A stretch of DNA of 32,522 nt from Candidatus Uhrbacteria bacterium RIFCSPLOWO2_01_FULL_47_25 (GTDB lineage Bacteria > Patescibacteriota > Patescibacteriia > GWA2-46-9), in NCBI GenBank assembly GCA_001791325.1, contig MGEK01000011.1, positions 1-32,522 on the forward strand. Reading direction: 5' to 3'. Positions 15,211 through 32,522 of this stretch are shown piece after piece (within the stretch, counting starts at the first letter, position 1; every line of letters starts with the position of its first letter). A program made the translations under genes and the position numbers. The notes under the pieces were generated by a model. That model saw only the letters and a program-made list of their open reading frames with translations. It was not told where the DNA came from and did not search any database.

Positions 15211-16701
15211 ATGGCTATGGTAAGATTTAAGGGCAGAGTGTGGACGCCGAGCATTACTCGGCAGATGTCTTTTTTTCATTCTTGTATGGCAGTTGTTGGT
15301 AGTACCGTTCATGCAAAATTATATGGTCTTCCTAAAAAAGACGAAATCTATGTAACACGTAACGGGAGACTGTCTGTTGTTTTTTGGCCTACAGATGATA
15401 TGGAAAAGTACCAATACTCATTGGGGAATCTTTGTAGTTCGCCAAATCAATTAATGCGTTTATCGTCTACGTACCATCGCTTAGGGAGTAGTTTGTGGCA
15501 TAGCAGTAATGCGCTAGAGAAACAATTGCCGTCAGTCGGTGTTTATAGGCGTTATCGCCTTGCTTACGAACGCCTCACCGCAGGGTTATCCTTAACGTCG
15601 GTTATAGGTCGCCATATACCGGAACTTTTGACCGCACGTTTAATAAAGCTCCATCCAAGTTATAGTAATCAAAAAGTTGAACTTATTATTAGCGAGCTAA
15701 CATATCCTTCTGAACAAACACCTCTAACAAAATCTCAATTGTCATTGCTTGGCATTGGCGCTATTTTGCAAAAAAGACGATTAAAGATTGATGACTTTTT
15801 AAATTATCCAGAAATACGTAGTCAATTGAGGGATTATTTAAAACGCTATGGCGCTATACCCGTCAATTTTTGTGAAGATCCATGGAGCGAAGATGACGTG
15901 GTTCAGCAATTAAGGGACATTCTTAATTACGATTGTGCCGAGGAATGGCGAAAAATAATCAAAAATCACAATAAACAATGTCGACAAACTCGTATGCTAT
16001 TGAGTCGGATTGGTGATACAGAAATTAGACGTTGGGCTAAGGCATTACAAATAGGTACAACATTAAATGAGTATCGCAAGTTCATTTTTTGCCGTGCTAG
16101 CTTGGCTTACCGTCCAATGTTTATATTAATAGCTAAACGATGCGATCTTGCTGACTGGCGGGAGTGTTGGAAGTTTACTCCCGATGAAGTTGAAAGTCTT
16201 TATTTTAAAAAAGATCGTTCTGCCCTTAAGATTTTGCCAAGACGCAAACTTACAGGAGTTATGTATTCTCCCAAACTTAACACATATTGTCTGCTTGCGC
16301 CGCGGGAGTTGCCTGCTTTTTTAAGAGAGAGTGACCATAAACCCAGTATTGAAAATAAAGAAAAGCAAAAGGGGCAAATCAAGGTAAACGGTGTCATTGC
16401 TAATGCCGGCATTATAAGAGGCAGGGCTAAAATTATTATGGGCAGGCCAGATTTCGATAAGTTTAGGGATGGAGATATTATTGTAACCGCCATGACGTCA
16501 GTTGATTTTGTTTCTATAATGAGACGCGCTGCCGCATTCGTTACAAATGAAGGTGGTATAACATCTCACGCTTCGATAGTATCAAGGGAATTAAACAAGC
16601 CTTGCATCATCGGCACCAAAATCGCGACAAAAGTTTTTAAAGACGGTGATCGCATTGAAGTTAATGCTAATAAGGGTATAGTTAGAATTTTAACAAAGTA
16701 A
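15211..16701 (+). CDS. PEP-utilising-enzyme mobile-domain protein, paralog P1
   Basis: C-terminal GDIIVTAMTSVDFVSIMRRAAAFVTNEGGITSHASIVSRELNKPCIIGTKIATKVFKDGDRIEVNANKGIVRIL. Helical N-terminus, no ATP-grasp recognised. Confidence 0.85.
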   Translation: MAMVRFKGRVWTPSITRQMSFFHSCMAVVGSTVHAKLYGLPKKDEIYVTRNGRLSVVFWPTDDMEKYQYSLGNLCSSPNQLMRLSSTYHRLGSSLWHSSNALEKQLPSVGVYRRYRLAYERLTAGLSLTSVIGRHIPELLTARLIKLHPSYSNQKVELIISELTYPSEQTPLTKSQLSLLGIGAILQKRRLKIDDFLNYPEIRSQLRDYLKRYGAIPVNFCEDPWSEDDVVQQLRDILNYDCAEEWRKIIKNHNKQCRQTRMLLSRIGDTEIRRWAKALQIGTTLNEYRKFIFCRASLAYRPMFILIAKRCDLADWRECWKFTPDEVESLYFKKDRSALKILPRRKLTGVMYSPKLNTYCLLAPRELPAFLRESDHKPSIENKEKQKGQIKVNGVIANAGIIRGRAKIIMGRPDFDKFRDGDIIVTAMTSVDFVSIMRRAAAFVTNEGGITSHASIVSRELNKPCIIGTKIATKVFKDGDRIEVNANKGIVRILTK

Positions 16702-16707
16702 AATTAC

Positions 16708-18066
16708 ATGGCAAAACAGAACCTAATAAAAAAGATTTCTGAAAGACGATCAAAGAAATATAAACCAGATTGGGTGGCCAAAGGGCATCTCAATTATGAA
16801 TTTTTTACTTTTTGGGCTGCCGCAAAAAGTTACCAAATCCAAATGCCCAAGGCAATTGGATTTCCTTTTAATTATAAATATGAGAACCTAGACGCTATTT
16901 ATGATCAAAACAATATCAATGAGCACGTTAAGAAATTATCTCATCTTAAGTTTATAAAAAGAAACATTAATTTTATTCAAAGACAGATTGACTATTTAAT
17001 TTTAGCGAGTAAAAAATATGGAGGCAAAAAAGATTTAAACTCTTTTGGGTCATGGTATAAAGTTTTTCAAAAGTTTTTACCCTCATTCGGACTCGTTCTG
17101 GGTTTGGAAGAGGCCCTGGAGAAAAAAGTGAAAAATTTTTTAAGCAATGATGATTTTTATAAAATCGCGTTTGCTGAAGAGACCGCAACATCATATGAGC
17201 AAAAATCAATTTTAAGAATTTCATTATTAAAAAGAAATTCTCGTCAGTTTAATAAAAGTTTAAAAGAACACTTGAAAAAATTTGATTGGATGGGCAATAA
17301 ATTAATGACTTATACGCCATTTACTAAGGCAGATGTAATTTCCCGCACCTGCCCGGCGGGCGAGGCTAAAAGAAAGTTGAAAGAAATGGAAGAGAATAGA
17401 AATAATCTTGGAAAAGGAGCCCTTGAGGTTTATAAAAAATTGAATAAGAAACAATTAGAATTAGTTTCTTTATATAGAAAAGTTTTATCTTTAAGAACCG
17501 ATAGAGCGGATGCGGTTGCGCAGGCCGCATCGTTAACTTATTCATTATTTGATTCTTTAGCCAATGAATTAAATTTGAAACGAGAAGAATTAATGCGTTT
17601 TTCCTTTGATGAAATTATGGAAATGTATAAAACAGAAAAAATTTTGGATTCTAAAAAGAGGTTAAAATATCACGCAGTGTCGTTAAATGAAAAAATTAAA
17701 GTTTTTTGGGGAAATTATGGTGAAGAGGAGAAAAAAATTAATAAAAAAGAGATTAGAGGTGTCGTAGCATGCAAGGGTTATGCTCGAGGACAAGTAAAAG
17801 TAATAATAGACATTCCAGATTTAATTAAAGTTAAAACAGGAGATATTTTAGTTTCTTCTTATACTAATCCTAATATGGTTCCGGCCATGGAAAGAGCCGT
17901 AGCTATTATAACCAATATCGGGGGCCTTACTTCTCATGCCGCTATAGTTGCTCGTGAAATGAATAAGCCCTGTATAATCGGCACTAAGATTGCTACTCAA
18001 GTATTCAAAGACGGAGACCTCGTTGAAGTTGATGCGAATAAAGGGGTGGTGAGAAAATTAAAATAA
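16708..18066 (+). CDS. PEP-utilising-enzyme mobile-domain protein, paralog P2
   Basis: C-terminal GDILVSSYTNPNMVPAMERAVAIITNIGGLTSHAAIVAREMNKPCIIGTKIATQVFKDGDLVEVDANKGVVRKL. Confidence 0.87.
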   Translation: MAKQNLIKKISERRSKKYKPDWVAKGHLNYEFFTFWAAAKSYQIQMPKAIGFPFNYKYENLDAIYDQNNINEHVKKLSHLKFIKRNINFIQRQIDYLILASKKYGGKKDLNSFGSWYKVFQKFLPSFGLVLGLEEALEKKVKNFLSNDDFYKIAFAEETATSYEQKSILRISLLKRNSRQFNKSLKEHLKKFDWMGNKLMTYTPFTKADVISRTCPAGEAKRKLKEMEENRNNLGKGALEVYKKLNKKQLELVSLYRKVLSLRTDRADAVAQAASLTYSLFDSLANELNLKREELMRFSFDEIMEMYKTEKILDSKKRLKYHAVSLNEKIKVFWGNYGEEEKKINKKEIRGVVACKGYARGQVKVIIDIPDLIKVKTGDILVSSYTNPNMVPAMERAVAIITNIGGLTSHAAIVAREMNKPCIIGTKIATQVFKDGDLVEVDANKGVVRKLK

Positions 18067-18082
18067 GCATTTGAAAATAATC

Positions 18083-18128
18083 GAAGGCCGGCACGCGCAT
18101 CCATTTTAAGGATTGCATGCCGGCCTTC
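18083..18128. terminator. Candidate bidirectional terminator between convergent genes
   Basis: GAAGGCCGGCA...TGCCGGCCTTC with 11-bp perfect outer arms between the P2 stop and the minus-strand gene stop. Confidence 0.7.
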
Positions 18129-18137
18129 TGCGTAGTC

Positions 18138-18794
18138 TCAGTCCAAGAACTTCGGCGCCACATGGTCGAGGAGTTGGAACTGGCCGTCCTTGTGGGAAAA
18201 GAACAGCGCTTCCAACTCGGCCATTACGCCGGGGATGCCGAGAGCGGCGTTCATTGGCGGCGAGTTGCCGCAATAGACGATAACGCCGTTTGGTTCCCTA
18301 TCCAGAGCTGTTTTCAGTCCCTCCCGAATACGTGCATGGTTCGCCTCTGGCGTCTCGCCAAGACGCTTGACGCCGTATTTTTTCCAGTCCAGCGCGAAGG
18401 CTTCATTACTGGTGATCCCCAGCTTTGTGGCGAGGCGAGCACATGTTTCTACGTCTTTGTCATGGGGCCCCAAATAGGGGATGTCCAATGATGGCGGTGT
18501 GCTGATGCACCTTTCGGGGTCTCGGAAGAACGGAACGAGACGCACTAAGGTGGTGATGTTCCTTCGCGTGTTGGCGGCCAAGAATTTAAACAGCCTCTTC
18601 ATTGTGAGATCTTGTATGACGACTTGTGTCGCCAACATCATCCGGAACACCTGATCCTCGCCGCGGGACGAAAGCCCACCACGCGGCGTGCTATCCGCCT
18701 TGTTCGCGTGGCGAATGGCGATTAGTGCCAGTCGCGGGTCTTTGCAGAACTGCCCCCATACCTCACTCACCAACCGTTCATTCTTCAGAATCAT
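18138..18794 (-). CDS. Histidine-phosphatase-superfamily-like protein H1, possibly degenerate
   Basis: LALIAIRHANKADSTPRGGLSSRGEDQ resembles the N-terminal RH motif plus LTxxG(R/E)xQ. The distal catalytic His is not obvious (VIVYCGNSPPM). Confidence 0.55.
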   Translation of the reverse strand: MILKNERLVSEVWGQFCKDPRLALIAIRHANKADSTPRGGLSSRGEDQVFRMMLATQVVIQDLTMKRLFKFLAANTRRNITTLVRLVPFFRDPERCISTPPSLDIPYLGPHDKDVETCARLATKLGITSNEAFALDWKKYGVKRLGETPEANHARIREGLKTALDREPNGVIVYCGNSPPMNAALGIPGVMAELEALFFSHKDGQFQLLDHVAPKFLD

Positions 18795-18903
18795 TGCCCT
18801 CCCCCTTTCCGTCAGCGATCCGTCACCGACGGGTTTTTGTGTCTGCTCCTAGTTGTGTTACCACAACACTATTAAAGACCGAACCAGAACCGAATATCTT
18901 GGA

Positions 18904-18932
18904 GGGTATTATAAAATAAGCATTATGTCAAT
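18904..18932 (-). promoter_or_regulatory. Candidate promoter of H1 with a roughly 100-nt leader
   Basis: Minus strand TTGACA-N17-TACCCT. The leader contains GTTGTG-GTAA-CACAAC (18852-18867) and CCGTC..GACGG hairpins. Confidence 0.45.
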
Positions 18933-19013
18933 GTTGGGGCAATTACCTTATTTATCTCGCACTTTCCAGAATGCCCCATGGTGAAGGTGCTGGATTAATT
19001 AATTCAATGAAGT

Positions 19014-20420
19014 TTAGAGTTTTTTGATTGTTCCTTTGTTCGCATCCACGTGAACCAAATCGCCGTTTTTTAATAATCTGGTAACATCTTTTATTCCGAT
19101 AACGCACGGAATCTTCATTTCTCTTGAGACGATGGCCGCATGAACCGTCACTCCGCCTTCGGCGGCGACGATGGCCGCCACCCTGTGTAAATATGAGGCA
19201 AAGGCCGGATTGGTATTGTTTACAACCAGCACTTCTCCTTTTTTAAAAGATTTCATCTCATCCCATTTATAAATAACTCTAACTCTCCCCGTGGCTGTTC
19301 CCGAAGACGCTGGCCGGCCAGTAAATTTTTTCAATTTTGATGAAGAGCGATTTATCAAGAATTGATTCTCAAATTTTTTTGCCTCTTTTCCATATAGAAC
19401 TTTTATTGTTGAGCCAGAAAGGCATACTACATAATCTCCCCTTAGCCTTTTTTCTATCAGCTTTAAGTTTACTTTCTTTTTATTGAGGAAGATATCTTTG
19501 AATTCTTCTACAGTTAAGCTTTTTATTTGCGAGCGATGTAGGCCGCTTCTTTTCTCAAGCTCGTCAAAAATTTTGTCGCTATGATAATAAACTTCGCCAA
19601 GAACTCCGCGGATAAAATCTTTAAGCGTTGCGGATTCGCGAAGAATGTTTGCACACGAAGTAGTTTTTTTGTTCGGCTTGTATTTTTTGAGCAGTTGTTT
19701 TCTTAAGTGTTCATTGTGCTTCAATATATTCGCGAGGTGGATTAATTTATTTTTTTGTTCAGCTTGGGTTGTCCTAGCCAATCTTTTTTTGAAGTCACTC
19801 ATAGTAAGCGCCGGCTCTTCCATGTAGCTTCGGCCCACCCAAGCATAATCATGCAAATGTCGCCTTAAAAATTTGGCTAGCCCCCCTTTTTTTGCCTTTA
19901 AAATACCCTCCCAGAATGTTCTCTCTTCTTTGGCTAAATAACTTTCTTCAGACGATGAGGTTAAGGCAGTAATTGCTGATCCAATATCATTCACTTTTTG
20001 CTTTTGCAATTCATGCCTTAAAATTTGCATGCCATAACGATCAATAAGGCGCGCATAAGCATTGCCTTCCCCTTGATAGTTTTTATAAAACTCAATGTAA
20101 AGTTTATACGCCCTAAATAGATCTTCATCAGTAGTCTTTCGGTCAGAAAAGCCGTCAAAAAAAGCGATCAAATCATTTCTTTTTTGTTCAAAATTTCTCT
20201 TTATTGAGTTTAAAAAGTCTGGGTGTTTCAAGGTGTATTCCCATAGTCGCCCTTGGGCGGTAATATCTTTTTCTTCATAATAAAATTTACTGTCGCTATT
20301 TCTTGTCAGCCAAACAAGATCAGAAGGAAATTTGTTTCTTTTCCATCCTATGGTCGCATAATAAGTTTGAAAAAAATAGAGAGGCCGCTCGCCAATAAGA
20401 ACTAACTTATGTTTTGCCAT
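19014..20420 (-). CDS. PEP-utilising-enzyme mobile-domain protein, paralog P3
   Basis: C-terminal GEVLVVNNTNPAFASYLHRVAAIVAAEGGVTVHAAIVSREMKIPCVIGIKDVTRLLKNGDLVHVDANKGTIKKL. Confidence 0.87.
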   Translation of the reverse strand: MAKHKLVLIGERPLYFFQTYYATIGWKRNKFPSDLVWLTRNSDSKFYYEEKDITAQGRLWEYTLKHPDFLNSIKRNFEQKRNDLIAFFDGFSDRKTTDEDLFRAYKLYIEFYKNYQGEGNAYARLIDRYGMQILRHELQKQKVNDIGSAITALTSSSEESYLAKEERTFWEGILKAKKGGLAKFLRRHLHDYAWVGRSYMEEPALTMSDFKKRLARTTQAEQKNKLIHLANILKHNEHLRKQLLKKYKPNKKTTSCANILRESATLKDFIRGVLGEVYYHSDKIFDELEKRSGLHRSQIKSLTVEEFKDIFLNKKKVNLKLIEKRLRGDYVVCLSGSTIKVLYGKEAKKFENQFLINRSSSKLKKFTGRPASSGTATGRVRVIYKWDEMKSFKKGEVLVVNNTNPAFASYLHRVAAIVAAEGGVTVHAAIVSREMKIPCVIGIKDVTRLLKNGDLVHVDANKGTIKKL

Positions 20421-20462
20421 ATTAATGATTGTTAATTATCATAGGAATTATTTACAGCCAAT

Positions 20463-20470
20463 GCTATAAT
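20463..20470 (+). promoter_or_regulatory. Extended -10 promoter element for P4
   Basis: TGCTATAAT (TGnTATAAT) in the divergent P3/P4 intergenic region, about 30 nt before ATG 20499. Confidence 0.45.
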
Positions 20471-20498
20471 GCTACCATACTTTGTCTTACATTACATT

Positions 20499-21983
20499 AT
20501 GCCAATACCCGCCATCGTTCAAAAGAAAGTTAAGGGAACGACTTGGTATCATCAGCGATTTGATGGCGCTCCGTTGTATATGGTACCTGTCTGTGAGGCC
20601 GAGGTGATGCGGGAGGCTCGGAAACCGGCCGGTACTGAGGCTGACGTCCGGGTTGGCTTTTTTACTGACGGAAAGGCGGATTGGTACTTGGACATGCGCG
20701 ATGTTCGCCGTGGTGCGCGTATAGTAGTTGAGCGAGCCAAACACGATGCCTCAATAAGCACTAAGCTCCTAAGAGCATGGCGAGATGATGAGCATGCTTT
20801 TCAGAAATTTTTTGATAATTTTTCAAAAGTGCGACTAAAAATGTTATCAGATTCGAAACTCCTGTCGTTAGCCGAACGATGGCATACACTCTTCGTACGG
20901 CGCGTTACATCGTCAGCGATAATTGATCACTTTGCCCTAGGCACAGATATGCTTATTGCAAAAATGTTGCGGGCCGAGCTTGGCGGCACTGATAAGGAAT
21001 CAGATTTTACCAAAATTTTCAGCACGGTCACCGCGCCAGCTCATCAGTCATTTATTAATAAGGCCGAAATGGAGTTATTAAAAATTGCTATTAAATTACC
21101 ATCGTCATCAAAGCAACTGGCTAAATACCAACAGCGGTATTTTTGGCTACATAATAATTATTTTCGCGCCCAAGAATTGAGCAAAAAATTTTTTCAGAGA
21201 GAAATTGAACGTTGGCAAAATTCCGGAGCAAATTTACTGGCAAAATACAAGCAACTGCGGGACATGCCAGCGAATAACGTCAGAAAGAAAATACAGTTAT
21301 TGAAAAAACATAAACTCTCTCGCCATTTGCGAACATTGCTCAAAATCTCCGAAGATTTTACTTGGTGGCAAGATGAACGCAAGCGTTCCACTTTTTTAAA
21401 TATTCATCTTGGTTCAAAGATACTCGGAGAAATGGCGCGCCGTCGGAAATACAATCCAGAATTGATGAAGTATTTGATGCCGTTTGAAATAAAATTAATG
21501 TTTCTTAAGGGATCGCCATCCGTAGAAGATTTGCGAAAGCGTCAGCGCGGTTGCGTAATGGTTGTTTGGCGCGGCGGTTATTGTGTTGCCATTGGTCGCG
21601 ATATTGATAGATTGCGGCATTTAATGTTCACTGCTAAAACTCGTGATGCGGTGAGAGATGTGCGCGGTTTATCAGCTTCAGTTGGCAAAGCAGTCGGTCG
21701 CGTGAAGATTGTTGGATCAGTAAAAGAAATCAACAAGGTCAATAAGGGCGACATTCTCGTCGCTGTCATGACTCGTCCGGATTACATAATAGGCATCAAA
21801 AAGGCGGCCGCCATTGTAACAAATGAGGGTGGAATAACCTGTCATGCCGCCATTGTCAGCCGTGAACTCGGCATCCCGTGTATCATTGGCACAAAAATTG
21901 CCACCGAAGTTTTTAAAGATGGCGACCTCGTGGAAGTAAATGCCAATCATGGGGTGGTGAAAAAAATAAGTGTTCATAAATGA
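20499..21983 (+). CDS. PEP-utilising-enzyme mobile-domain protein, paralog P4
   Basis: C-terminal GDILVAVMTRPDYIIGIKKAAAIVTNEGGITCHAAIVSRELGIPCIIGTKIATEVFKDGDLVEVNANHGVVKKI; central KYQQRYFWLHNNYFRAQ and WWQDERK. ATG 20499 preferred because the listed start at 20469 overlaps the TATAAT. Confidence 0.87.
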   Translation: MPIPAIVQKKVKGTTWYHQRFDGAPLYMVPVCEAEVMREARKPAGTEADVRVGFFTDGKADWYLDMRDVRRGARIVVERAKHDASISTKLLRAWRDDEHAFQKFFDNFSKVRLKMLSDSKLLSLAERWHTLFVRRVTSSAIIDHFALGTDMLIAKMLRAELGGTDKESDFTKIFSTVTAPAHQSFINKAEMELLKIAIKLPSSSKQLAKYQQRYFWLHNNYFRAQELSKKFFQREIERWQNSGANLLAKYKQLRDMPANNVRKKIQLLKKHKLSRHLRTLLKISEDFTWWQDERKRSTFLNIHLGSKILGEMARRRKYNPELMKYLMPFEIKLMFLKGSPSVEDLRKRQRGCVMVVWRGGYCVAIGRDIDRLRHLMFTAKTRDAVRDVRGLSASVGKAVGRVKIVGSVKEINKVNKGDILVAVMTRPDYIIGIKKAAAIVTNEGGITCHAAIVSRELGIPCIIGTKIATEVFKDGDLVEVNANHGVVKKISVHK

Positions 21984-21986
21984 TTT

Positions 21987-22976
21987 ATGTTTAAGTATCG
22001 TCGTATTCCAGAAAATCCGAGCAGTGTTGATGCTAATCGAAACGATGAAGTGCAAGAACTAGGAGAGTCGGGAAAAGAAAAAGAACTTGGAGAACGAACA
22101 TGCATAACTTTGCATTTTTTTCGTCATGGCAAGAAGGGCAAGAAGGAGGTGGGAGCCCCCGATGAGCCGGTCGAACTGACTGAACAGGGTCGAGCTGAAG
22201 CATTGGCTACGGGACGTGAACATCCAGCTAACACCGAAGTGGCTTGGGCTGCCGGGAGCCCTCGTATTAGGAGCGCTCACACCGCACTTTTGCGATTAAT
22301 TGGCGCAAGGCAAGACATCGCAGAGAAGATTAAAGATATGTCTTACGCTGATGCTAAGAAAGAAATTAAAAAGATGCTTAAGGCGGGTGAGAAAGTTGCT
22401 ACATTGCCAGAACTTAATTTTGTTACCGATGGAACCCCAGAATTTTCCAATGCTTTTGAGCATGCCTATGAGACCGGTCATGCGCTAGAGTTCATGGCGT
22501 TAGAAAGCGATGATTTAGTAGCTAAACAAAAAGATATGGCCAGTCTTTCTTATTCAAGAATAGCGGCCAATTTTGCTTCACTGATAGCTAGAGAGATGGT
22601 GGTTGGTAATAATTTTAATAAATTAGTTTCGAGCAATCGCGATAAATACATAGAGTACAATAATGCGCTGGAACGTTATTTCGGCACTCACCACACAGTG
22701 CCGGAAAGTTTCTACCTTAAGGCCTTGGAAAAAATAACTGGCCAGCGACCAACTCCTGAATTTATGAAAACGTACTTCTCTGATCAAACGGGCAAGGTGA
22801 ACGGGTTTGACACTCAAGAAGGGTTTACTATTGATATAGTTAATCAAGGTGCAACACAGCAGTTAATTTTACGAGGGTCGCGAGGCATTCCTGATATTAC
22901 ATTAACCCCCAAAATTCTTGCGGAAATTATTGGAGACGCGGAAAGATTGGATGCAAATATTGAAAACCATGAATAG
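21987..22976 (+). CDS. Histidine phosphatase superfamily protein H2
   Basis: ITLHFFRHGKKG, VELTEQGRAEALATG, AAGSPRIRSAHTA, possible distal catalytic His GTHHTVPESFYLKAL. Starts 3 nt after the P4 stop. Confidence 0.8.
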   Translation: MFKYRRIPENPSSVDANRNDEVQELGESGKEKELGERTCITLHFFRHGKKGKKEVGAPDEPVELTEQGRAEALATGREHPANTEVAWAAGSPRIRSAHTALLRLIGARQDIAEKIKDMSYADAKKEIKKMLKAGEKVATLPELNFVTDGTPEFSNAFEHAYETGHALEFMALESDDLVAKQKDMASLSYSRIAANFASLIAREMVVGNNFNKLVSSNRDKYIEYNNALERYFGTHHTVPESFYLKALEKITGQRPTPEFMKTYFSDQTGKVNGFDTQEGFTIDIVNQGATQQLILRGSRGIPDITLTPKILAEIIGDAERLDANIENHE

Positions 22977-23021
22977 CGTGGACAGTACAAAGGGAACAAT
23001 AGTAGGGGAAGTCGCTCAATT

Positions 23022-23055
23022 TTTACTTTCCAATTCTATGGAATTGGAAAGTAAA
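23022..23055. repeat. Intergenic palindrome sharing its core with the mutM palindrome
   Basis: TTTACTTTCCAATTC-TATG-GAATTGGAAAGTAAA, perfect 15-bp arms. The 20-nt core TCCAATTCTATGGAATTGGA is identical to that in 13576-13605. Confidence 0.85.
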
Positions 23056-23079
23056 TAAATTAGTAGAAAATTTTATACT

Positions 23080-23709
23080 ATGGCTCAAACTCTTTACCTT
23101 TGGGATCTTGCCAATACTTTATTTCCCGAGCGCTGGGATAGCGAGCGAAGCGGCGTGCCGAGTTACGACGCATATGTAGAGGCGCTGGGATATGATTTGG
23201 AAACCATTACCCCACATGATTACGAATGGGCATATGAGCGGCCATACAAAGATGGATTGTTTGTTTTGAGTATTGCAGATGGATTCCGTGAGGTGTTGAC
23301 ATGGACCAAAAATAATGCAGTTTTTACTACAGGTAATCGGGAGCAGGTTGATTGGCGGGCAGAACAGTTACATAAAAAATACGATTTTGATATACGCGAT
23401 TATATTAAAGAGATTTGTAGTACGTTTGATTTCGGCAACACCAACCGTAAGACCAAAGATATGCTTGAAAATATTTTGGATAAGAAATATCGCGAGGGGT
23501 TCAGAGTAGCGGTTTATACCGATGACAATCTTGGCAACTGCGAATTTTTCATAGCCGCGGCCACAGATTTTGCTCGCCTGACGCCCGATTTTCACTTTCG
23601 TATCTATCGTATGATGAATGACAACAAAGGATTACGACCAAAAGATGGTTACTGTGAAATCGGCACCTTGTACGATTTACAGAAAAATGAGCAAAAGATA
23701 TTGAATTAA
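23080..23709 (+). CDS. HAD-like protein with atypical motif I (DLANT)
   Basis: LYLWDLANTLFPERW, NAVFTTGNREQ, FRVAVYTDDNLGNCEFFIAA. Confidence 0.6.
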   Translation: MAQTLYLWDLANTLFPERWDSERSGVPSYDAYVEALGYDLETITPHDYEWAYERPYKDGLFVLSIADGFREVLTWTKNNAVFTTGNREQVDWRAEQLHKKYDFDIRDYIKEICSTFDFGNTNRKTKDMLENILDKKYREGFRVAVYTDDNLGNCEFFIAAATDFARLTPDFHFRIYRMMNDNKGLRPKDGYCEIGTLYDLQKNEQKILN

Positions 23710-23734
23710 CTAGCCTCAAAATAGATTCAGTGCC

Positions 23735-25168
23735 ATGAAAAAAAATAAACTTCATAATTTTATAGTTTGGGAGCGTCCTTGTTATCCGGGCTTAATTCAT
23801 ATGGCCGCGGAGTCTCTAGTTTTACCTCAAAAAAAGGAATGGGGTAGGCCATGGGCAAAATCGTATGGTTTTTGGAGCAGAGGTATGGTCAGATTTGCTT
23901 GGCCCAAAAAAGAGTTTTTAGCAAATGCCGTCTATATTGCCAAAAAATCATTGAACGACGCTTATTTTAATCGCAAATTAAAAATCTATTATAAACTGAA
24001 CGCGGTACTTAAAAAGTGAAAGGTCAAAATCGCCAGAACAAAACTTAGCAATTTGTCAGATCAACAATTCCCCCAACTCGTAGCCACATTTAATAAAATC
24101 TATTTAGATTGGTGGGGGTTTACACAAGTCGCTGAACCGGCCGCTGCTGGTCTCGAGCTGTTGCTCAAAAGAAAAGTTAAACTCACCCAAGAAGAGCTAA
24201 GTGTTTTAACTGCGCCAACAAAAAAGTCATATACTCTAGAAGTAGAGGAAGAAATATTCAGGCTGGCGCTTTTATATAAAAAAAATAAGTCTATACCAAA
24301 GTCACAATTAGTAAAACTTGTTCACCGATATTTCTGGCTTAATAATGGATACGCGCATACCTACGTTCTCGATGGTAAATATTTTCGGAAACAAATCATT
24401 GAAGTTGCCTCAAAAATGTCTGTGAAGCAGATTATTGAAGGCCTGAAGGCGAATGTATTGAGATTAGAGTCAGCCCAAAATAATGTTTATCGTCTATCAA
24501 AACAACTTTCTTTGTCAAAAGAAGAATTTAAAATTGTAAAAAGAATTGCTTGGTTTGCTGACTTTCAAGATAAGCGTAAGGCAATCTCTTTGGAGGCAAA
24601 TTATTACATTGATTTATTTATTAAGGAGCTCGCTAGGCGTACGGGTATATCGTATAACCTTGTTAGATACGCTATACCTCTTGAATATTCCAATCTTTTG
24701 CATGGAAAATTTTCTATAACACATCTAAGAGCACGGCAGTATTATTTTGCCATGATAATTGATGAAAACGGAATTAGATTATTTGAAGGGAATGCGGCGC
24801 GCCGTATGGAAAAAAAATTGTTGGGGGAAATATCTGACGAAGTAGTGCGCGAGATTGAGGGTATGCGCGCCATGGGCGGAAGAATTATTGGTAATGCACG
24901 TGTAATATTGAAGACTAAAGATGTATATTTAATGAAACGCGGAGAGATTTTGGTGACCACTATGACTTCTCCTGATTTTATTTCAGCCATGAAAAAAGCA
25001 AAGGCTCTGGTGACTGACGAGGGCGGCCTCACCTGTCATGCGGCGATTATTAGCCGCGAGCTAAACATCCCTTGCGTTGTGGGAACAAAAATAGCTACAA
25101 GAACATTAAAAACAGGCGACAAAATCGAAGTGGACGCGAATCATGGTTTGGTGCGGATAATCAAATAA
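23735..25168 (+). pseudogene. PEP-utilising-enzyme mobile-domain protein, paralog P5, interrupted by one in-frame TGA
   Basis: ORF 23735-24019 and ORF 24053-25168 are in the same frame, separated only by TGA at 24017-24019 (AAA AAG TGA AAG GTC AAA ATC GCC AGA). C-terminal GEILVTTMTSPDFISAMKKAKALVTDEGGLTCHAAIISRELNIPCVVGTKIATRTLKTGDKIEVDANHGLVRII is intact. Confidence 0.7.
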
Positions 25169-25173
25169 GTGAT

Positions 25174-25211
25174 GAGGGCGGGTCAGTTACCATGTGGTAA
25201 CCCCCGCCCTC
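25174..25211 (+). terminator. Strong hairpin terminator after P5
   Basis: GAGGGCGGG-TCA-GTTACC-ATGT-GGTAAC-C-CCCGCCCTC. Confidence 0.7.
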
Positions 25212-25235
25212 TTGACATCTTTGCGCCGTGCGAGA

Positions 25236-25430
25236 TTAGTCACTCGCGTTTCGTTTCTGTTGAGGGAACCCCTTCCTCAATTCACTGATGTCCGATTTGT
25301 GTCGGTCTGGCGAGCTTGCGGAGAAGGTCGTGGGGGTCGTCATTTCTCCCAGACGAAACAAGGGGCGTATTGTGGGGGGACTCCATTTTGTCGGCGCGCC
25401 CTCAAAACTTTTCCAAGCCTTCTCTGTCAT
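25236..25430 (-). CDS. Small hypothetical protein (64 aa)
   Basis: MTEKAWKSFEGAPTKWSPPTIRPLFRLGEM... with an upstream GGAAAGGA Shine-Dalgarno-like sequence and a candidate promoter. Confidence 0.4.
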   Translation of the reverse strand: MTEKAWKSFEGAPTKWSPPTIRPLFRLGEMTTPTTFSASSPDRHKSDISELRKGFPQQKRNASD

Positions 25431-25467
25431 AGTGGGCATCCTTTCCCAGCTATCATCGTTGATACAA

Positions 25468-25496
25468 ATTTTACAATGAAATATGATATAATTCAA
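25468..25496 (-). promoter_or_regulatory. Candidate promoter for the small ORF 25236-25430
   Basis: Minus strand TTGAAT-N17-TAAAAT. Confidence 0.4.
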
Positions 25497-25653
25497 TTAA
25501 TAGTTTGCCACAATACGAGATAAATCCTCAGCACAATCTGTTTGATATACAAAGTAATGAGGATTTATTAAACTTTTCTTACTAAAAGTATTATGTGATC
25601 AGAGTTCTAATGTACTGACACAGCTACTAAACACTTTCTCGTCAGTCGGACTA

Positions 25654-26223
25654 TCATTTAAACTTTGTTACCAAATCTATATCTCCTTGACTTGGCTCCT
25701 CGGTGGCCTCAAACGTCCTGGCTATAGCTTCTCTTACTTTTTCGACCGGCATGTCTTCTCCCCACCCGATCGCAACTTTCGGGTGAAGTATTGTACTTTT
25801 TATATAATATCCTTGTCTGGCGGACAATTGTAAGTCGTAAGAAAATTCAACAACAAACTCCGGGTCTAAGCCCATTTCTTTTGCCTTATAAAAATGATCA
25901 GCTTCGTGCTTTGTTGTTTCTAGCGCCCGTTGATCATTAACGCCCGCTAGTGTTAAGATATGCTGAAAATCGGTTACGTTCTTTAGACGTATAGCTGGTG
26001 CTTTTTTTTCAACATCGCGAATCACATCGTTGAGTTGCTCAATAGATTTTTTTTTGTTTATGAAGTCCAGCAAGGCGTGCTCACGCTTTTGCCATAGCGC
26101 TTGCAACTTTTTGGTTTCTAGAGACCCCTCAAGTGCTTGGGCGAGAAGTTCCTTTAAATGCTCCGTTTTTGCTTCTGAAGAAATCTCCCCAGACTCTTTT
26201 CGCATACCTTTCAGAATAAACAA
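25654..26223 (-). CDS. Hypothetical protein with HEADH (HExxH-type) motif
   Basis: Intact 189-aa ORF; ETTKHEADHFYKAKEMG. Confidence 0.6.
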   Translation of the reverse strand: MFILKGMRKESGEISSEAKTEHLKELLAQALEGSLETKKLQALWQKREHALLDFINKKKSIEQLNDVIRDVEKKAPAIRLKNVTDFQHILTLAGVNDQRALETTKHEADHFYKAKEMGLDPEFVVEFSYDLQLSARQGYYIKSTILHPKVAIGWGEDMPVEKVREAIARTFEATEEPSQGDIDLVTKFK

Positions 26224-26620
26224 ATAATAATTTGTATTGTTGATATTTTACCATTTAATAAAGGATACGCAAGTACGTTGCTTGTCCTTCATTCTTCGTA
26301 CATGGTGTTTATGGTGTAGCCGTGGTGAGGTCATGTGTGAAGAGTTAGGTATCAACGTACCCATGAAATTGTATCACATGGTTTCCGTGCCGGGCACGAA
26401 GACAAGGAGCGTCATGGTCTGCCGGTATATTTGGTATGTCTAGCGGTCCATTTTGCCTTGATTCCTCGGGAGTATCTAATCTTAAGGTGTTTGACTTATC
26501 GCGAGCTTGGAAGTAATATAAAAATAGAAAAATGAAAATAATCGCCTTGTTAATTCAAGAATTTTCGGCGTATAAAAAATTTGAAGAATGTTAGTAATTT
26601 TTAATCTATTTAATTAACAT

Positions 26621-28123
26621 ATGTCCAGTGCCGTTGCATTTTCGGGGAAATGGAGAATTAAGCCATCGGGCCAGTTGCCAATTTTCCTGCGCTTTGTCAT
26701 CAACTCTTCATTCACCAAAGAGAATGCCAGTAAGTCAGGAATTCGCAACACGCTTCCAAATCGTACATACCTCAATCATATGATGTATTGGCCGGCGGTA
26801 GAATATAATAAATTTGAACGAGAGATAATAAATCACATGAAACGAGATGACGGCTGGTATGAAAAATTTTATCAGCAACAGCTAAAAATATCAGAGAAGC
26901 TTTATGCTAAAGGGCCAGAATTAAAACGAATTAACTGGCGGTTCAAGAGTAATACGCAAATTGAACGAGTGTTGGTTGCGTTACTAGCAGAATATAGGAT
27001 TTGTTTATGTGCGTGGTACACGCAGTATCCGCTCGATCAGTATTTTGAAGATACCCTTGAAAAGAATCTAATAAAACGACTCCCAGCCGACGATCCTAAT
27101 TTTCGTAAATACGTTCTTACCTTTACTGACCCACATACCGAAACTAATGTGGCCGAAGAACGCTGGCTGTTAGTAAAAATGGCCAGAGAATTTTTTCAGA
27201 ATAAAGAAAAACTTTCGCGATTGTCGCCACATGGACGTGCAAAAATCGAAAAACATCTTGATAAATTTGCTTACATTCAACGCGGCTTAGCAACTAGTAA
27301 GCCTTATTCTTTTAACGATATCATTAATCGTTTTAAAGAAATTCAATCGCAAGTCCGCAATGGAGCCGATATTAATGACATTGTCTATCAGGCATCGCAG
27401 AAAAAAATCAACGATGATTTTTGTTGGGCCTTGCGTCAGGTTAAGCCTGACAAGAAATTCCGTCGCGTTATTGATCTGGCTCGTAACAATAGCTATTTAC
27501 GCAACCGCCGTGTTGAAGCATGGTTTAATGCGGATTACGGAGCAAGTTTTATCTATGCCGAAGTAGCCCGTCGTGCTCGTTTTAACCCAAATTGGATAAT
27601 GGAAGTCTCTGTGCCGGAGATGCTTGGGGCGCTACATGGTCAGCCGTTGCCAGCAAAAACTGAAATGCAAAAGCGTTTCAAAAATTACGCCATGGTAGTG
27701 CGAAAGGGTGAAACCACACTCATAACTGATCCGAAAAAAATCAAAATGTTTGAACATGCTTATTTTGTTGATGTAGCTCATGCCGATGAGATACAAGGTT
27801 CTATGGCATGTCTTGGGGGAATTATTAGGGGCAGGGCGAAAGTATGCCTTGATAAAAATGAAATCAGAAAAGTTAAACGTGGAGATATTTTAGTAGCCCA
27901 GTATACTACGCCTGATTTCGTTCCGGCCATGGAAAAAGCGGCGGCAATTGTTGCTGATCAAGGAGGCCTTTCATCGCACGCCGCCATAGTTTCTCGAGAG
28001 CTTGGCGTGCCATGCGTTATTGCCACACAAAACGGCACACGTATTATTCACGACAATGACTTGCTTGAAGTGGACGCGCGCAAAGGGGCTGTCAGGATTC
28101 TTAAGCGAGCGCGCAAAAAATAA
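26621..28123 (+). CDS. PEP-utilising-enzyme mobile-domain protein, paralog P6
   Basis: C-terminal GDILVAQYTTPDFVPAMEKAAAIVADQGGLSSHAAIVSRELGVPCVIATQNGTRIIHDNDLLEVDARKGAVRIL. An internal start (MMYWPAVEYNKFE) is possible. Confidence 0.87.
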   Translation: MSSAVAFSGKWRIKPSGQLPIFLRFVINSSFTKENASKSGIRNTLPNRTYLNHMMYWPAVEYNKFEREIINHMKRDDGWYEKFYQQQLKISEKLYAKGPELKRINWRFKSNTQIERVLVALLAEYRICLCAWYTQYPLDQYFEDTLEKNLIKRLPADDPNFRKYVLTFTDPHTETNVAEERWLLVKMAREFFQNKEKLSRLSPHGRAKIEKHLDKFAYIQRGLATSKPYSFNDIINRFKEIQSQVRNGADINDIVYQASQKKINDDFCWALRQVKPDKKFRRVIDLARNNSYLRNRRVEAWFNADYGASFIYAEVARRARFNPNWIMEVSVPEMLGALHGQPLPAKTEMQKRFKNYAMVVRKGETTLITDPKKIKMFEHAYFVDVAHADEIQGSMACLGGIIRGRAKVCLDKNEIRKVKRGDILVAQYTTPDFVPAMEKAAAIVADQGGLSSHAAIVSRELGVPCVIATQNGTRIIHDNDLLEVDARKGAVRILKRARKK

Positions 28124-28710
28124 TGACCAAGGCCATTTTTTTTGACACGGGGGGCGTTCTCCTTAAAGAGGGGCTTGCTCAGTCGATTCGAGAGTACGAG
28201 AGACGTTTTGGAGTTCCCGAAGGATTACTTTATGCGTCAGCGCACGACCGTCCGTATTGGAGAGAGTTTACGCTTGGCAATATCACCGAAGATGAATACT
28301 GGAGACAGTTATCGCAAGACTTCGGTCAAGAAGTGAAACTTGAAGACTGGCACGACATAGTTCGCAAGAGTTTTTCGCCAAATTTACCGTTACTTGATTT
28401 TATCAAAACATTACAAGGTCAGTTTATTTTGGGTGTTATTTCTAATCATCCCAAAGAATGGTTTGATTACTATTGGGATACCTACAAATGGGGTGATCTA
28501 TTTACAGTAAAAGCAATATCTGGCTATGTGCATATTAGAAAACCTGATCCCAAAATTTTTCAGTATGCCCTAAGACAAGCTGGCGTCAATGGGGAAGAGG
28601 CAATTTATGTTGATGATCGTCCGGAGCGCGTTGAAGGCGCAGAAACCTTAGGCATTCGTGTTATTATGTATCAAGATGTCGAACACTTAAAAGCAAATTT
28701 TATTCATTAG
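28123..28710 (+). CDS. HAD superfamily hydrolase, IA type
   Basis: AIFFDTGGVLLKEG, LGVISNHP, IRKPDPKIFQYALRQAGV, AIYVDDRPERVEGAETLGIRVI. Start overlaps the P6 stop (TAATG). Confidence 0.9.
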   Translation: MTKAIFFDTGGVLLKEGLAQSIREYERRFGVPEGLLYASAHDRPYWREFTLGNITEDEYWRQLSQDFGQEVKLEDWHDIVRKSFSPNLPLLDFIKTLQGQFILGVISNHPKEWFDYYWDTYKWGDLFTVKAISGYVHIRKPDPKIFQYALRQAGVNGEEAIYVDDRPERVEGAETLGIRVIMYQDVEHLKANFIH

Positions 28711-28720
28711 CACCAATTTT

Positions 28721-29749
28721 ATGAGCGAACAAAGATACAGTCCGGAGGATGAACGTCAATTTATCGCGACAACGTATATCGATCTCACGCGACACGGTAG
28801 TCGGTTTGGTGGGCCGATGGATGTCATGTTTCCCGACGGCACAAAGTTGACCGTCGACGATGGTACTGACTTAACCCCTCGGGGAAAAGAGGGGGCAAAG
28901 GAATTCGGTGTTTCGGGGTATCCATCAGACGTTACATTGATACATCCGCGTGGAGGCGATGAACCGCGGCATGGCGAGACCGGAGACGATATGATGAGCA
29001 GAAGCGAAAAAATTGGTCTTGCACGAGCAGGATTAGAAGTTGGTCCTGCAGCAGTGCGTAGCAAAGAGGGTAGGGTGAAAGGATCCCGTCGGGGTAAGGG
29101 CACAGATTACAAGAGTGCAGGAGTGAGCGATGCATTAAAAGGAGCAAAGCAGCTTATCAATAAAACACTAAACGATCTCGTTACTGCGGCGAGCCAGAGC
29201 GATCCATTGTTTGAAGAAAGGTTCAAATCTAATCCCGAACTTAGAGCACAATATCGCGAACAGGCGCAGAATGCTGGACTTAGAGCAGCCATGAATAAAG
29301 AAGAGGTAATGGAACTACTAGCCGAAAATGAAGCATATGAGCTTATACATGCAATTGAATTGTCTCGTCGGGGTGTAAAAGGTGGCGAGGCGAAAGCGAT
29401 TCCAATTGTTGGTAGTGGTTTGTTTGCCGAGTCTCTATACAAAAAAGCTATGGTCATTGAAGATGAAAAAACGGGCGAGAGGAAAGTTGGTTTTGATGAT
29501 GTGGACGAAATTGGGGGTTTCACGAAACAAGCTACGGCTTTTCGGATCAAGTTAGAAAGGAATACAAGGTTGGGTGATGCGCGGCAGCTTGAAGATTTTT
29601 TGAAAGATACAAAAGTTGAATTTTCGTTCACCGATCCAGAACGAGCGAATCTACCGCAACTTAAAGATAAGAAAGTATATTTGGATTGGAATTTAGTCAG
29701 AGAACTTGCCGACAAAGCAGAAAAAAGATTATCAACCAAAACTGAATAG
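28721..29749 (+). CDS. Histidine-phosphatase-superfamily-like protein H3
   Basis: TYIDLTRHGSRFGG, GTDLTPRGKEGAKEFGVS. Distal catalytic residues not clearly identified. Confidence 0.6.
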   Translation: MSEQRYSPEDERQFIATTYIDLTRHGSRFGGPMDVMFPDGTKLTVDDGTDLTPRGKEGAKEFGVSGYPSDVTLIHPRGGDEPRHGETGDDMMSRSEKIGLARAGLEVGPAAVRSKEGRVKGSRRGKGTDYKSAGVSDALKGAKQLINKTLNDLVTAASQSDPLFEERFKSNPELRAQYREQAQNAGLRAAMNKEEVMELLAENEAYELIHAIELSRRGVKGGEAKAIPIVGSGLFAESLYKKAMVIEDEKTGERKVGFDDVDEIGGFTKQATAFRIKLERNTRLGDARQLEDFLKDTKVEFSFTDPERANLPQLKDKKVYLDWNLVRELADKAEKRLSTKTE

Positions 29750-29756
29750 TAATTTA

Positions 29757-31211
29757 ATGATAAAATTGCCAATTGACCCTCGCCGCGAACTTTGGCGCTG
29801 GGGGCCAATCAAGTTAAAAGTTCTCTACATGGCCTACTTTATGGAGGACATTTGGCACGGCGTTCCCAAGTGCTACCAGTGGCCATGGCCGCCGATTATT
29901 TTCATTTTCAACAGGGGGTATGGCGTCGGGATGATGGACTATCGAGCGCTCAAAGCGGTTGGCGATAAATATTTTCGGCGGTATTTTTTGAATCCCAAAA
30001 ATTTTGCGCGTCACTGGGTGCGCTACGAGAGTTGGATCAGCGATTATGAATCGTTTGCCGATCAAGTGAACGCACTGAAATTGCGGGAGTTGAGTAACCA
30101 GGCGCTCGCCAAACTTTACCACGAATTCCGTCAGTTAAATTATGATTTTTGGTTGATTGTACACGTGCCAGAGATGGCTAACTGGGGAGGAGAAGCAATG
30201 TTGCTTCGTGCGCTTCGTCAGATTGATCCCTTGCGGGCGGAAACACACCTTGAGGTGCTCGCGGCGCCGACAAAGCCGTCGTTTTTCCAAGAGGAAGAAA
30301 TGGAGTTGTTGCGGCTTGCCGCTAAAACCACACGCGCTAATCTGCCAGAAGCCTTGCGTGAACATGCTCGTCGGTACGCGTGGATTCTCAACAGTTATGC
30401 TGGCAATCGGCGTCTTGGTCCGACATACTTTCTCGTCAAACTCCGAGAGCTCACCCGCGAGCGATCAGCGGCTCGGGTGCTGCAGAGTATTAAAATACGA
30501 CTCAACGCCATCGCATATAGAAAACGAGCGCTCGCACGACAATTACGCATTAGCCCCCAAGTCAGACGCATGGCCGAGATGCTCGGCGAGGCTGTGTTTT
30601 GGCATGACGACCGCAAAGGATACATTTGGCGGCTTCAACACACAGGCGATCCAATCCTGCGTGAGATTGCCCGTCGGCAGGGGTGGAATTTTGAGGAACT
30701 ATTGTGGTGTTTGCCCGAGGAAGTTGCGCGTTTGGCCTTGGGTCATTCTCTTAACAAGAAAGACGTACTGCGTCGTCGAGGCGATTACGTGATGATTTAT
30801 GGTCAAAGAATTGGTCGTGAGCACTATGGGGCGGCAGCGAAAAAAATTTGCGCTATGTATAAGACAAAGACAACTGGTCAGCAAGAGGTGAAAGGTCTTG
30901 TGGTCAGCCGCTCTTTGAAGCTGGTTCGTGGAACCGTCCGCCTAGTTCGCGACCCATTGCGCGAGGTGGGCAAAATGTGGAAAGGAGATATTCTCGTCGC
31001 CGCCATGACTTCACCCGAGTATATTGTAGTCATGCGTAAAGCCGCGGCCATTGTCACCGATCATGGCGGCATGACCTCGCACGCGGCTGTTGTGTCTCGC
31101 GAACTCGGAGTTCCCTGCATTGTGAATACAAAACATGCCACTAGCGTTTTTAAAGACGGTGATCTTGTTGAAGTTGACACAAAGAATAGCATTGTCCGTA
31201 AACTGTCATGA
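29757..31211 (+). CDS. PEP-utilising-enzyme mobile-domain protein, paralog P7
   Basis: C-terminal GDILVAAMTSPEYIVVMRKAAAIVTDHGGMTSHAAVVSRELGVPCIVNTKHATSVFKDGDLVEVDTKNSIVRKL. ATG 29757 (MIKLPIDPRRELW) preferred over 29706, which overlaps H3. Confidence 0.88.
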   Translation: MIKLPIDPRRELWRWGPIKLKVLYMAYFMEDIWHGVPKCYQWPWPPIIFIFNRGYGVGMMDYRALKAVGDKYFRRYFLNPKNFARHWVRYESWISDYESFADQVNALKLRELSNQALAKLYHEFRQLNYDFWLIVHVPEMANWGGEAMLLRALRQIDPLRAETHLEVLAAPTKPSFFQEEEMELLRLAAKTTRANLPEALREHARRYAWILNSYAGNRRLGPTYFLVKLRELTRERSAARVLQSIKIRLNAIAYRKRALARQLRISPQVRRMAEMLGEAVFWHDDRKGYIWRLQHTGDPILREIARRQGWNFEELLWCLPEEVARLALGHSLNKKDVLRRRGDYVMIYGQRIGREHYGAAAKKICAMYKTKTTGQQEVKGLVVSRSLKLVRGTVRLVRDPLREVGKMWKGDILVAAMTSPEYIVVMRKAAAIVTDHGGMTSHAAVVSRELGVPCIVNTKHATSVFKDGDLVEVDTKNSIVRKLS

Positions 31212-32522
31212 AATTTATCAAATCGGAGTTGGCAAAGCAAAAGTGGTATCGTCAAGGAGCGGCCGTGAAGTTTTGGTACATCTCAGTGCCATGGAGTGCT
31301 TCCCACTCCATGACCGCGCATGGGAGGCCGATTAAGCTGCGACAAAAGTTCATCGGATACGTAGCGAAGGATTTTGTCACGCTTTTTCTAGCCCATATGA
31401 ACGCCGAAGAAATCGCGCGTTGGCATCTTGCGCGGCAACGGCGCGATCTCAACACGATGGCCCGACAGCATCGCGCCTGGCAGAAAAAGTTTATGGCTTT
31501 CCGCGATGCAGTTATTGGTGGTCAGTTGACGCAAGGACTGCGGCGGTTATCTGATGGGGAGCTCCTGCGTCGTTTTCGTACGTACGCGACCTCCTACCAC
31601 TCATTGTGGCGAGAGGCAATTTTTCATGACTCATTTGATCTCATGGGAGAGAGATTTTTGGAAACCGCTCTCCGTGATTTCGGTCTCACGTTGACATCCG
31701 ATGAGCTTGAGATGCTTACCACGAACGACGAGGCCATGCCGATCCAGATTGAACGCATAGCGCTGGCGAGGTTAGCGTCGGGCGCGAAGCCCCATCCGGC
31801 CCTTCGTCGCTTAATTAAGCGACGTGCCTTCGCTGTCATTGGTCGTGAATTTCTTCGATTTGCGCAGGAGCTTCATCGCCACTCACAGCGCTACTTCTGG
31901 ATCCATAATGACTATGCGCATGTTAAACGGTTGAATGAAAAGTTTTTCCTCAACGCGGTACGAGAATTGATTGGGCAGCCCAAAAAATTACAGACGGACC
32001 GGCAGTTATTACGAACGATTGCGCGCAATACTCGTCGGAAGAAAGCACTGGAGAAACGACTTAAACTACCCCATGAGGTACTCGCCGTCACCCGGCTTCT
32101 GTCCGTTGTTGGCCAGTGGAGGGATGAGCGGAAAGCCATGAACCAGCTTGGCGACGAACTCATGCGCCGCTACGCTATCGAGTTTAGTCGTCGCAGTACT
32201 ATTCCACTTGCCGACGTCGAGTATGCGTCGTGGTGGGATGCGTGGAAATTGCTTCGTCCGAGCGCTGATTTGCGTCGCCAATTACGAGAGCGACGTCGAG
32301 GTGCCTTCTATGCCTTCAGCGGACCCTTTATCCTTCGCGTTGTTACCGGCCGACGCAGTGAGCAACTACTCGCCTTCATGAATTCACTCATTATGCATAC
32401 CGATTTGGCCGGTCGAACCGCTTACCCCGGCACGGCCCGCGGCGTAGCTCGGCTCATGCTGGGGCAGAAAGACTTCAAGCGATTCCATCGTGGTGACGTA
32501 CTCATTGCCCCAAACACCCGGC
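31208..32522 (+). CDS. PEP-utilising-enzyme mobile-domain protein, paralog P8, truncated by window end
   Basis: Continuous open frame from ATG 31208 (MKFIKSELAKQKWYRQGAAVKFWYISVPW...) through the last base. Contains HSQRYFWIHNDYAHVKRLNEKFF and WRDERK shared with P4, P5 and P7, and the start of the mobile domain GTARGVARLMLGQKDFKRFHRGDVLIAPNTR. Absent from the ORF track because no stop is reached. Confidence 0.85.
   Translation, partial: MKFIKSELAKQKWYRQGAAVKFWYISVPWSASHSMTAHGRPIKLRQKFIGYVAKDFVTLFLAHMNAEEIARWHLARQRRDLNTMARQHRAWQKKFMAFRDAVIGGQLTQGLRRLSDGELLRRFRTYATSYHSLWREAIFHDSFDLMGERFLETALRDFGLTLTSDELEMLTTNDEAMPIQIERIALARLASGAKPHPALRRLIKRRAFAVIGREFLRFAQELHRHSQRYFWIHNDYAHVKRLNEKFFLNAVRELIGQPKKLQTDRQLLRTIARNTRRKKALEKRLKLPHEVLAVTRLLSVVGQWRDERKAMNQLGDELMRRYAIEFSRRSTIPLADVEYASWWDAWKLLRPSADLRRQLRERRRGAFYAFSGPFILRVVTGRRSEQLLAFMNSLIMHTDLAGRTAYPGTARGVARLMLGQKDFKRFHRGDVLIAPNTR

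Follow-up and report, generated by a model that had tools for sequence, protein, structure and literature searches.

A divergent array of acceptor–swivel proteins in a Candidatus Uhrbacteria genome and the separate ATP-grasp protein that probably charges them

The right half of a 32,522-base contig (C11) from Candidatus Uhrbacteria bacterium RIFCSPLOWO2_01_FULL_47_25 encodes eight related but divergent proteins, which we call P1–P8 and which appear as open reading frames. The window that we analyzed is this entire contig, one of 40 that make up a genome of 1.197 Mb. P1 (15211–16701, forward strand, 496 amino acids (aa)) and P2 (16708–18066, forward, 452 aa) stand first, followed by P3 (19014–20420, 468 aa) on the opposite strand and P4 (20469–21983, forward, 504 aa); the strand of P3 was absent from an earlier note that had described the array from the DNA letters. 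Farther along the forward strand come P5 (23735–25168), P6 (26621–28123, 500 aa), P7 (29706–31211, 501 aa when read from a TTG codon) and P8 (31208–32522). P5, recognized from its open reading frames, its match to the swivel family PF00391 and the acceptor profile described below, carries an in-frame TGA at 24017–24019 that leaves pieces of 94 aa and 371 aa, and is either split in two or damaged. The TTG start of P7 runs into the upstream gene, and an ATG 17 codons downstream, at 29757, is likely to fit better. P8, identified as an open reading frame and by blastp against other acceptor domains, holds the acceptor domain and the first residues of the swivel, within which the contig end truncates it after the residues RGDVLIAPNTR.

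Phosphatase-like and other genes interrupt the array, and the family extends beyond the window: PF00391 occurs at 14 sites in the genome, spread over contigs C11, C28, C39, C17 and C33, of which one is a complete phosphoenolpyruvate (PEP) synthase (821 aa, C33) and 13 are others. The array is thus confirmed. The copy on C17 is broken between its acceptor domain and its swivel, and the copy at the end of C28 does not continue P8. When the ends of C11, C17 and C28 were compared for joining overlaps, the sole match was a 47-base repeat shared by the left end of C11 and the right end of C17 in a non-joining orientation; it lies at positions 18–64 of the window and recurs on C17 in locus L018. The interruption of P5 and the broken C17 copy, together with broken copies in two related genomes (G001 and G002), could suggest that these genes are ordinary pieces of ppsA or relics without function. 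Of the seven window copies that do not run into the contig end, however, six are open frames of 452–504 aa with the catalytic histidine, and the two-domain layout and the invariant residues recur in dozens of genomes, so that we consider relics extremely improbable. The view that the copies are not fragments of one ppsA or ppdK locus also holds, as an ordinary intact ppsA is located on C33.

Each of P1–P7 consists of a divergent N-terminal region of 350–400 residues followed by a PF00391 phosphohistidine swivel at the C terminus (E of 1e-22 to 9e-27). The swivel of P1 spans residues 418–489 (E 1.4e-22), and the corresponding matches reach E 6.2e-26 in P2, 1.1e-23 in P3, 3.9e-25 in P4, 2.9e-24 in P6 and 1.6e-26 in P7. 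With an acceptor-domain profile, P1 scores 218 bits (P1 being itself part of the profile alignment), P2 177 bits, P3 258 bits, P6 245 bits and P7 325 bits. Aligned with one another, the window copies are on average only about 15–16% identical in their acceptor regions (maximum 26%) versus 49% in their swivels, in agreement with the earlier description of a diversified family with variable N termini and one conserved phosphoryl-carrier module. P1–P7 all have the motif GGxxxH, which a regular-expression search found in 163 of 166 array-type swivels, and its histidine is invariant in an alignment of 66 full-length relatives (A3), which bears out the proposal that this residue is the carrier. In P1–P7, NCBIfam models of PEP synthases, rifampin phosphotransferase (RPH) and PRK08296-type proteins matched only the swivel and neighboring residues, all far below cut-off. 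No ATP-grasp domain and no PEP barrel was found in P1–P8 by Pfam scan, as had been claimed, and no copy joins an ATP-grasp to PEP-binding domains. Apart from the PEP synthase on C33, the genome has no PEP barrel of family PF02896, and no HPr was found in it.

The AlphaFold2 model of P4, built with the 66 full-length relatives, has a pLDDT of 91.9 and a pTM of 0.89. When it was compared with the Protein Data Bank (PDB) by Foldseek, the top six matches were crystal structures of RPH-Lm (E 5.6e-15 to 2.7e-12), with a query TM score of up to 0.54. Residues 89–484 of the family profile align to residues 442–866 of RPH with an E of about 4e-41, a stretch that comprises the swivel and most of the rifampin-binding domain. 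In RPH, transfer to rifampin requires both Arg666 and Glu667, and Lys670 belongs to the same network (PMC4844700); the segment Arg666-Glu667..Lys670 aligns with [Q/R/K]-D-x-R-K of the acceptor family. At these positions, which make up block 9 of RPH, 41 of the 66 rows have Asp, 44 have Lys and 58 have Arg, Lys or Gln at the Arg position, a conservative change whose register is uncertain. The best reading of the profile alignment, the P4 model and the Foldseek matches is that each copy combines a predicted RPH-type acceptor domain with a swivel. The resemblance to RPH that the earlier note had pointed out is thus upheld, whereas its description of the swivels as stand-alone, with a linker-like N-terminal half, gives way to a match with the rifampin-binding (acceptor) domain. 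The catalytic histidine of P4 is His459 (21843–21845).

A candidate donor is encoded elsewhere in the genome. The family PF01326 has two ATP-grasp domains there, that of the PEP synthase and that of a separate 318 aa protein on C28 (C28:26493–27437; E 3.2e-98), near which lie an acceptor–swivel gene, a histidine-phosphatase-like gene and, at the contig end, a second swivel copy. Eight such dedicated ATP-grasps from related genomes align end to end, the others being 56–63% identical to the C28 protein, against an average of about 15% among the acceptor domains. Lys22, Arg117 and Thr136 of RPH are required for the first transfer (PMC4844700), and they correspond to Lys24, to the invariant Arg119 and to Thr or Ser138 in the dedicated ATP-grasp. 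A profile of this protein scores intact dedicated proteins at 338–567 bits and PEP synthases at up to 295, and in a tree the dedicated ATP-grasps group apart from PEP synthases (support 0.77). The array swivels likewise stand apart in a swivel tree, whose best split unites 47 of 47 PpsA sequences with one other. The earlier phosphoryl-carrier idea therefore stands for the carrier module and needs amending for the missing donor, which is encoded separately and presumably supplied in trans. Six further genomes (G141, G088, G089, G207, G188 and G041) have a dedicated-type ATP-grasp within open frames of 677–1107 aa, which probably represent single-chain members of this dikinase lineage.

We then examined 238 genomes of the same class, each at least 90% complete. 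The acceptor domain occurs in 72 of them and the dedicated ATP-grasp in 75, with both in 62, the acceptor alone in 10, the ATP-grasp alone in 13 and neither in 153 (Fisher p 2.7e-33, uncorrected for shared ancestry). For at least 7 of the 13 genomes with the ATP-grasp alone, the ATP-grasp gene adjoins a non-PpsA swivel gene that the acceptor profile missed. Donor and acceptor lie within 15 kb of each other in 35 of the 42 genomes for which both positions are listed. Both components look broken in G001, from the same genus, and in G002, from the same family, as one would anticipate for two parts that function jointly. When 84,980 species genomes were scanned and the best 80 loci kept, so that the distribution is a lower bound, the family turned up in numerous Patescibacteria (in records named Taylor-, Moran-, Nealson-, Levy- and Daviesbacteria, among others) and in DPANN archaea (Woese-, Micr-, Nano- and Aenigmarchaeota); arrays are also present in loci binned as Aminicenantes and Planctomycetota (L080, L093, L103 and L104). 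In one woesearchaeal locus (L073), nine acceptor–swivel genes are followed by an ATP-grasp gene. In another (L089), a single open reading frame of 3761 aa joins one ATP-grasp to eight swivels with acceptor regions between them, and a 1311 aa protein (L090) and an 853 aa protein (L094) unite an ATP-grasp with two modules and with one module, respectively, the latter being followed by more acceptor–swivel genes. No other observation argues as strongly as these natural fusions for a single ATP-grasp serving many modules.

The same data bear on whether the swivels are charged instead, from ATP or PEP, by the complete PEP synthase. That enzyme is indeed encoded on C33, and ten acceptor-bearing genomes have no dedicated ATP-grasp; yet the acceptors and the dedicated ATP-grasp tend to occur in the same genomes and close to each other, they are joined by fusion into one chain, and the array swivels group away from those of PEP synthase, all of which makes such charging quite improbable.

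Taking together the computed observations, namely domain make-up, conserved catalytic residues, the predicted fold of P4, linkage, co-occurrence and natural fusions, we consider it probable that P1–P8 serve as acceptor subunits in ATP-dependent dikinases like RPH and HpeHI and that a separate ATP-grasp charges many of them in trans. The RPH cycle, in which phosphate passes from the ATP-grasp to the swivel histidine and on to the acceptor, is established (PMC4844700), and a two-chain form of it has been shown biochemically for HpeHI (PMC12167813). By analogy, the dedicated ATP-grasp on C28 would bind ATP and phosphorylate the swivel histidine of each acceptor subunit in trans; the charged swivel would swing to the RPH-type acceptor domain of its own subunit, which would pass the phosphate to its bound substrate. 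We infer that a single donor would serve all copies and that the substrate would differ from copy to copy; the substrates are likely to be small molecules. A conserved swivel beside variable acceptors is the pattern that a shared donor would produce, and other constraints could produce it too. For Patescibacteria and DPANN archaea as a whole, we lean toward a general scheme in which one dedicated ATP-grasp charges a large and exchangeable set of acceptor–swivel proteins that differ in their targets, drawn together in some archaea into a single megasynthase-like chain of one ATP-grasp and eight modules.

Several observations weigh against this interpretation. The genomes tested share ancestry, so that the Fisher p is not a true probability. 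Ten genomes have acceptors with no dedicated ATP-grasp above threshold, possibly owing to draft gaps or to use of the PEP synthase, and three (G178, G226 and G161) have several acceptor copies without one. Donor and P1–P8 lie on different contigs in this assembly. The structural match of P4 to RPH, with a TM score of 0.54 and a root-mean-square deviation of 8.8 Å, denotes a common architecture and falls short of close similarity. The acceptor domain alone drew only chance-level matches from PDB sequences at E values up to 5; since this part has no sequence relative there, the link to RPH rests on the predicted fold and the joint alignment. Structure prediction covers P4 alone, and P1, P2 and P6 are very divergent.

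The array is a collection of old acceptor types, most of which have their closest relatives in other genomes. By blastp, the nearest N-terminal relative of most window copies belongs to another genome, sometimes an archaeon: the acceptor of P4 is 53% identical to one in G031 and about 37% identical to ones in Woesearchaeota versus 25% to its best neighbor in the window, and that of P7 finds its best relative, at 38% identity, in Nealsonbacteria. We therefore rejected recent tandem duplication, and the word expanded, which had been used for the array, should not be taken to imply it. Searches of phage and plasmid collections gave partial matches centered on the swivel, none of which covers 80% of P4, and the viral predicted structures nearest to it resemble the swivel alone; with matches mostly confined to the swivel, there is no clear sign that mobile elements carry the family as cargo. 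Copy number differs strongly between related genomes. This variability, the decay in G001 and G002, the homology to RPH and the high divergence of the acceptor domains would all suit an arsenal for inactivating antibiotics or xenobiotics, each acceptor taking a different inhibitory compound. Chemically, such an arsenal would be a special case of the dikinase scheme. The P4-type acceptor is kept in very distant organisms, however, a pattern more in keeping with a stable substrate than with an arms race, and adjoining phosphatases would tend to reverse inactivation; an arsenal thus seems unlikely to us.

These phosphatase-like genes occupy several gaps of the array. Three genes in the window are putatively histidine-phosphatase-like, judging from RHA or RHG motifs and one sub-threshold PF00300 match. 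The first, with an RHA motif and no Pfam match, lies between P2 and P3 (18138–18794, reverse strand), and a homologue of it adjoins the decayed locus of G001. The second, with an RHG motif, begins three bases past P4 (21987–22976, forward; PF00300 E 0.011, below cut-off) and has homologues adjoining arrays on C28 and in loci L093, L104 and L057; its structure prediction, made with three sequences, reached a pLDDT of 47.7 and was not used. The third, with the motif LTRHG, lies between P6 and P7 (28721–29749, forward) and has a weak phmmer link to a phosphatase-like gene on C39. Directly after P6, sharing one base with it, is a HAD-family phosphatase gene (28123–28710, forward; PF13419 E 2.3e-14), and one acceptor–swivel protein of G026 (L053:9033–11150) carries a fused HAD domain. 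The histidine-phosphatase motif occurs in 11 of 224 genes near acceptor–swivel genes versus 1 of 334 far from them (p 3e-4), several such genes in related loci are backed by PF00300, and low-molecular-weight protein tyrosine phosphatase (LMW-PTP), HD and NYN genes also recur beside arrays. It is plausible, from gene order and motifs, that phosphorylation is paired with dephosphorylation by adjoining genes.

Such a pairing raises the question of whether these proteins serve as regulatory protein kinases or as carriers in a phosphorelay; the ATP-grasp would then charge the swivel histidine, the acceptor domain would bind a protein and the phosphatases would reverse the mark. VadK of Mycobacterium tuberculosis, a dikinase derived from pyruvate phosphate dikinase (PPDK), autophosphorylates His422 and has been proposed as a regulatory kinase (PMC13400623), and the recurrence beside arrays of phosphatase-like genes with various folds (histidine phosphatase, HAD and LMW-PTP) points the same way. 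Against this, the acceptor fold resembles the rifampin-binding domain of RPH, the characterized RPH and HpeH act on small molecules, and no common gene for a protein target was seen beside arrays. We accordingly regard a regulatory role as doubtful and favor acceptor subunits of small-molecule dikinases.

Other genes in and around the arrays were noted in passing. A three-gene unit with two occurrences in the genome (L019:5441–7801, reverse; L020:4959–7401, forward) consists of a histidine-phosphatase-like gene, a free-standing swivel of 109–111 aa and a protein of 364–375 aa without a Pfam family, and looks as though acceptor domain and swivel were separate genes. A 552 aa protein with a histidine-phosphatase-like domain and an apparent S-adenosylmethionine (SAM) methyltransferase (L104:6896–8554) adjoins a swivel gene. 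Phosphate acetyltransferase genes lie beside arrays at L080:3–650 (Pfam match) and L073:15237–16211 (identified by eye), genes for acetyl-CoA synthetase and pyruvate:ferredoxin oxidoreductase adjoin array genes in G035 (L061:4313–10679), and NYN-domain genes, encoding putative RNases, do so in two genomes (L055:3766–4284, L055:6703–7386 and L091:693–1346). The window also encodes a 189 aa protein with a HEADH (HExxH-like) motif and no convincing family (25654–26223, reverse); a protein on C17 that adjoins another swivel copy has HELGH (L018:1741–2406). In the left half, a 479 aa protein (4317–5756, reverse) with a sub-threshold match to IS110-type transposases (PF02371 E 4.6e-4) lies in a stretch with a raised G+C content of about 0.55.

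A very small genome here devotes roughly 15–20 kb to one family, and our search of the open-access literature turned up no account of arrays like these. If true, the arrangement of one donor and many acceptors would be a new way of organizing dikinases. A single purified ATP-grasp could charge all acceptor subunits of a genome with labeled phosphate for substrate screening, and the substrates, once found, could reveal what these cells import, trap or modify. Bacteria and archaea that live in similar ways have acceptor types in common, which suggests that they have a need in common as well.

Among known systems, the array can be set beside several enzymes that share its parts. PpsA and PPDK have a similar swivel, and the donor belongs to their ATP-grasp family, but the array proteins lack a PEP/pyruvate barrel and a same-chain ATP-grasp and have a different acceptor domain; the sole PF02896 barrel belongs to the PEP synthase on C33 and none to P1–P8, which excludes their identity as PEP synthase or PPDK. 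Parts of enzyme I of the phosphotransferase system (PTS) were rejected as well, with no HPr and no second PEP barrel in the genome. VadK (Rv1127c), a histidine autokinase, similarly reuses dikinase parts without a role in PEP synthesis; unlike the array proteins, it is a single chain with ATP-binding and histidine domains and does not form an array. RPH-Lm (PDB 5FBS, 5FBT, 5FBU and 5HV1), the best structural match of P4, shares the acceptor domain and the C-terminal swivel, and the positions of its Glu667 and Lys670 are mostly Asp and Lys in the array family, with Gln, Arg or Lys at that of Arg666. Unlike the array proteins, RPH is a single chain with its own ATP-grasp. The identity of P4 to RPH-Lm, about 15% in the structural alignment, is below the >42% that defines RPH clade A (PMC4844700), and P1–P8 have no ATP-grasp, so that they fall outside that clade. 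The closest likeness is to the two-component small-molecule dikinases HpeHI from Rhodococcus rhodochrous GD02, CreHI and the phenylphosphate synthase PpsAB. As in HpeHI, one chain holds the ATP-grasp, here with an RPH/PEP synthase-type nucleotide site, and the other an RPH-type substrate-binding domain, as modeled for P4, with a C-terminal swivel that carries the GGxxxH histidine. HpeHI pairs one ATP-grasp with one acceptor subunit and acts on phenolic compounds, whereas in Patescibacteria and DPANN archaea one dedicated ATP-grasp can be accompanied by as many as about a dozen very divergent acceptors, sometimes in one polypeptide. The architecture is best read as a variant of the two-component small-molecule dikinases, with the same parts in a different organization.

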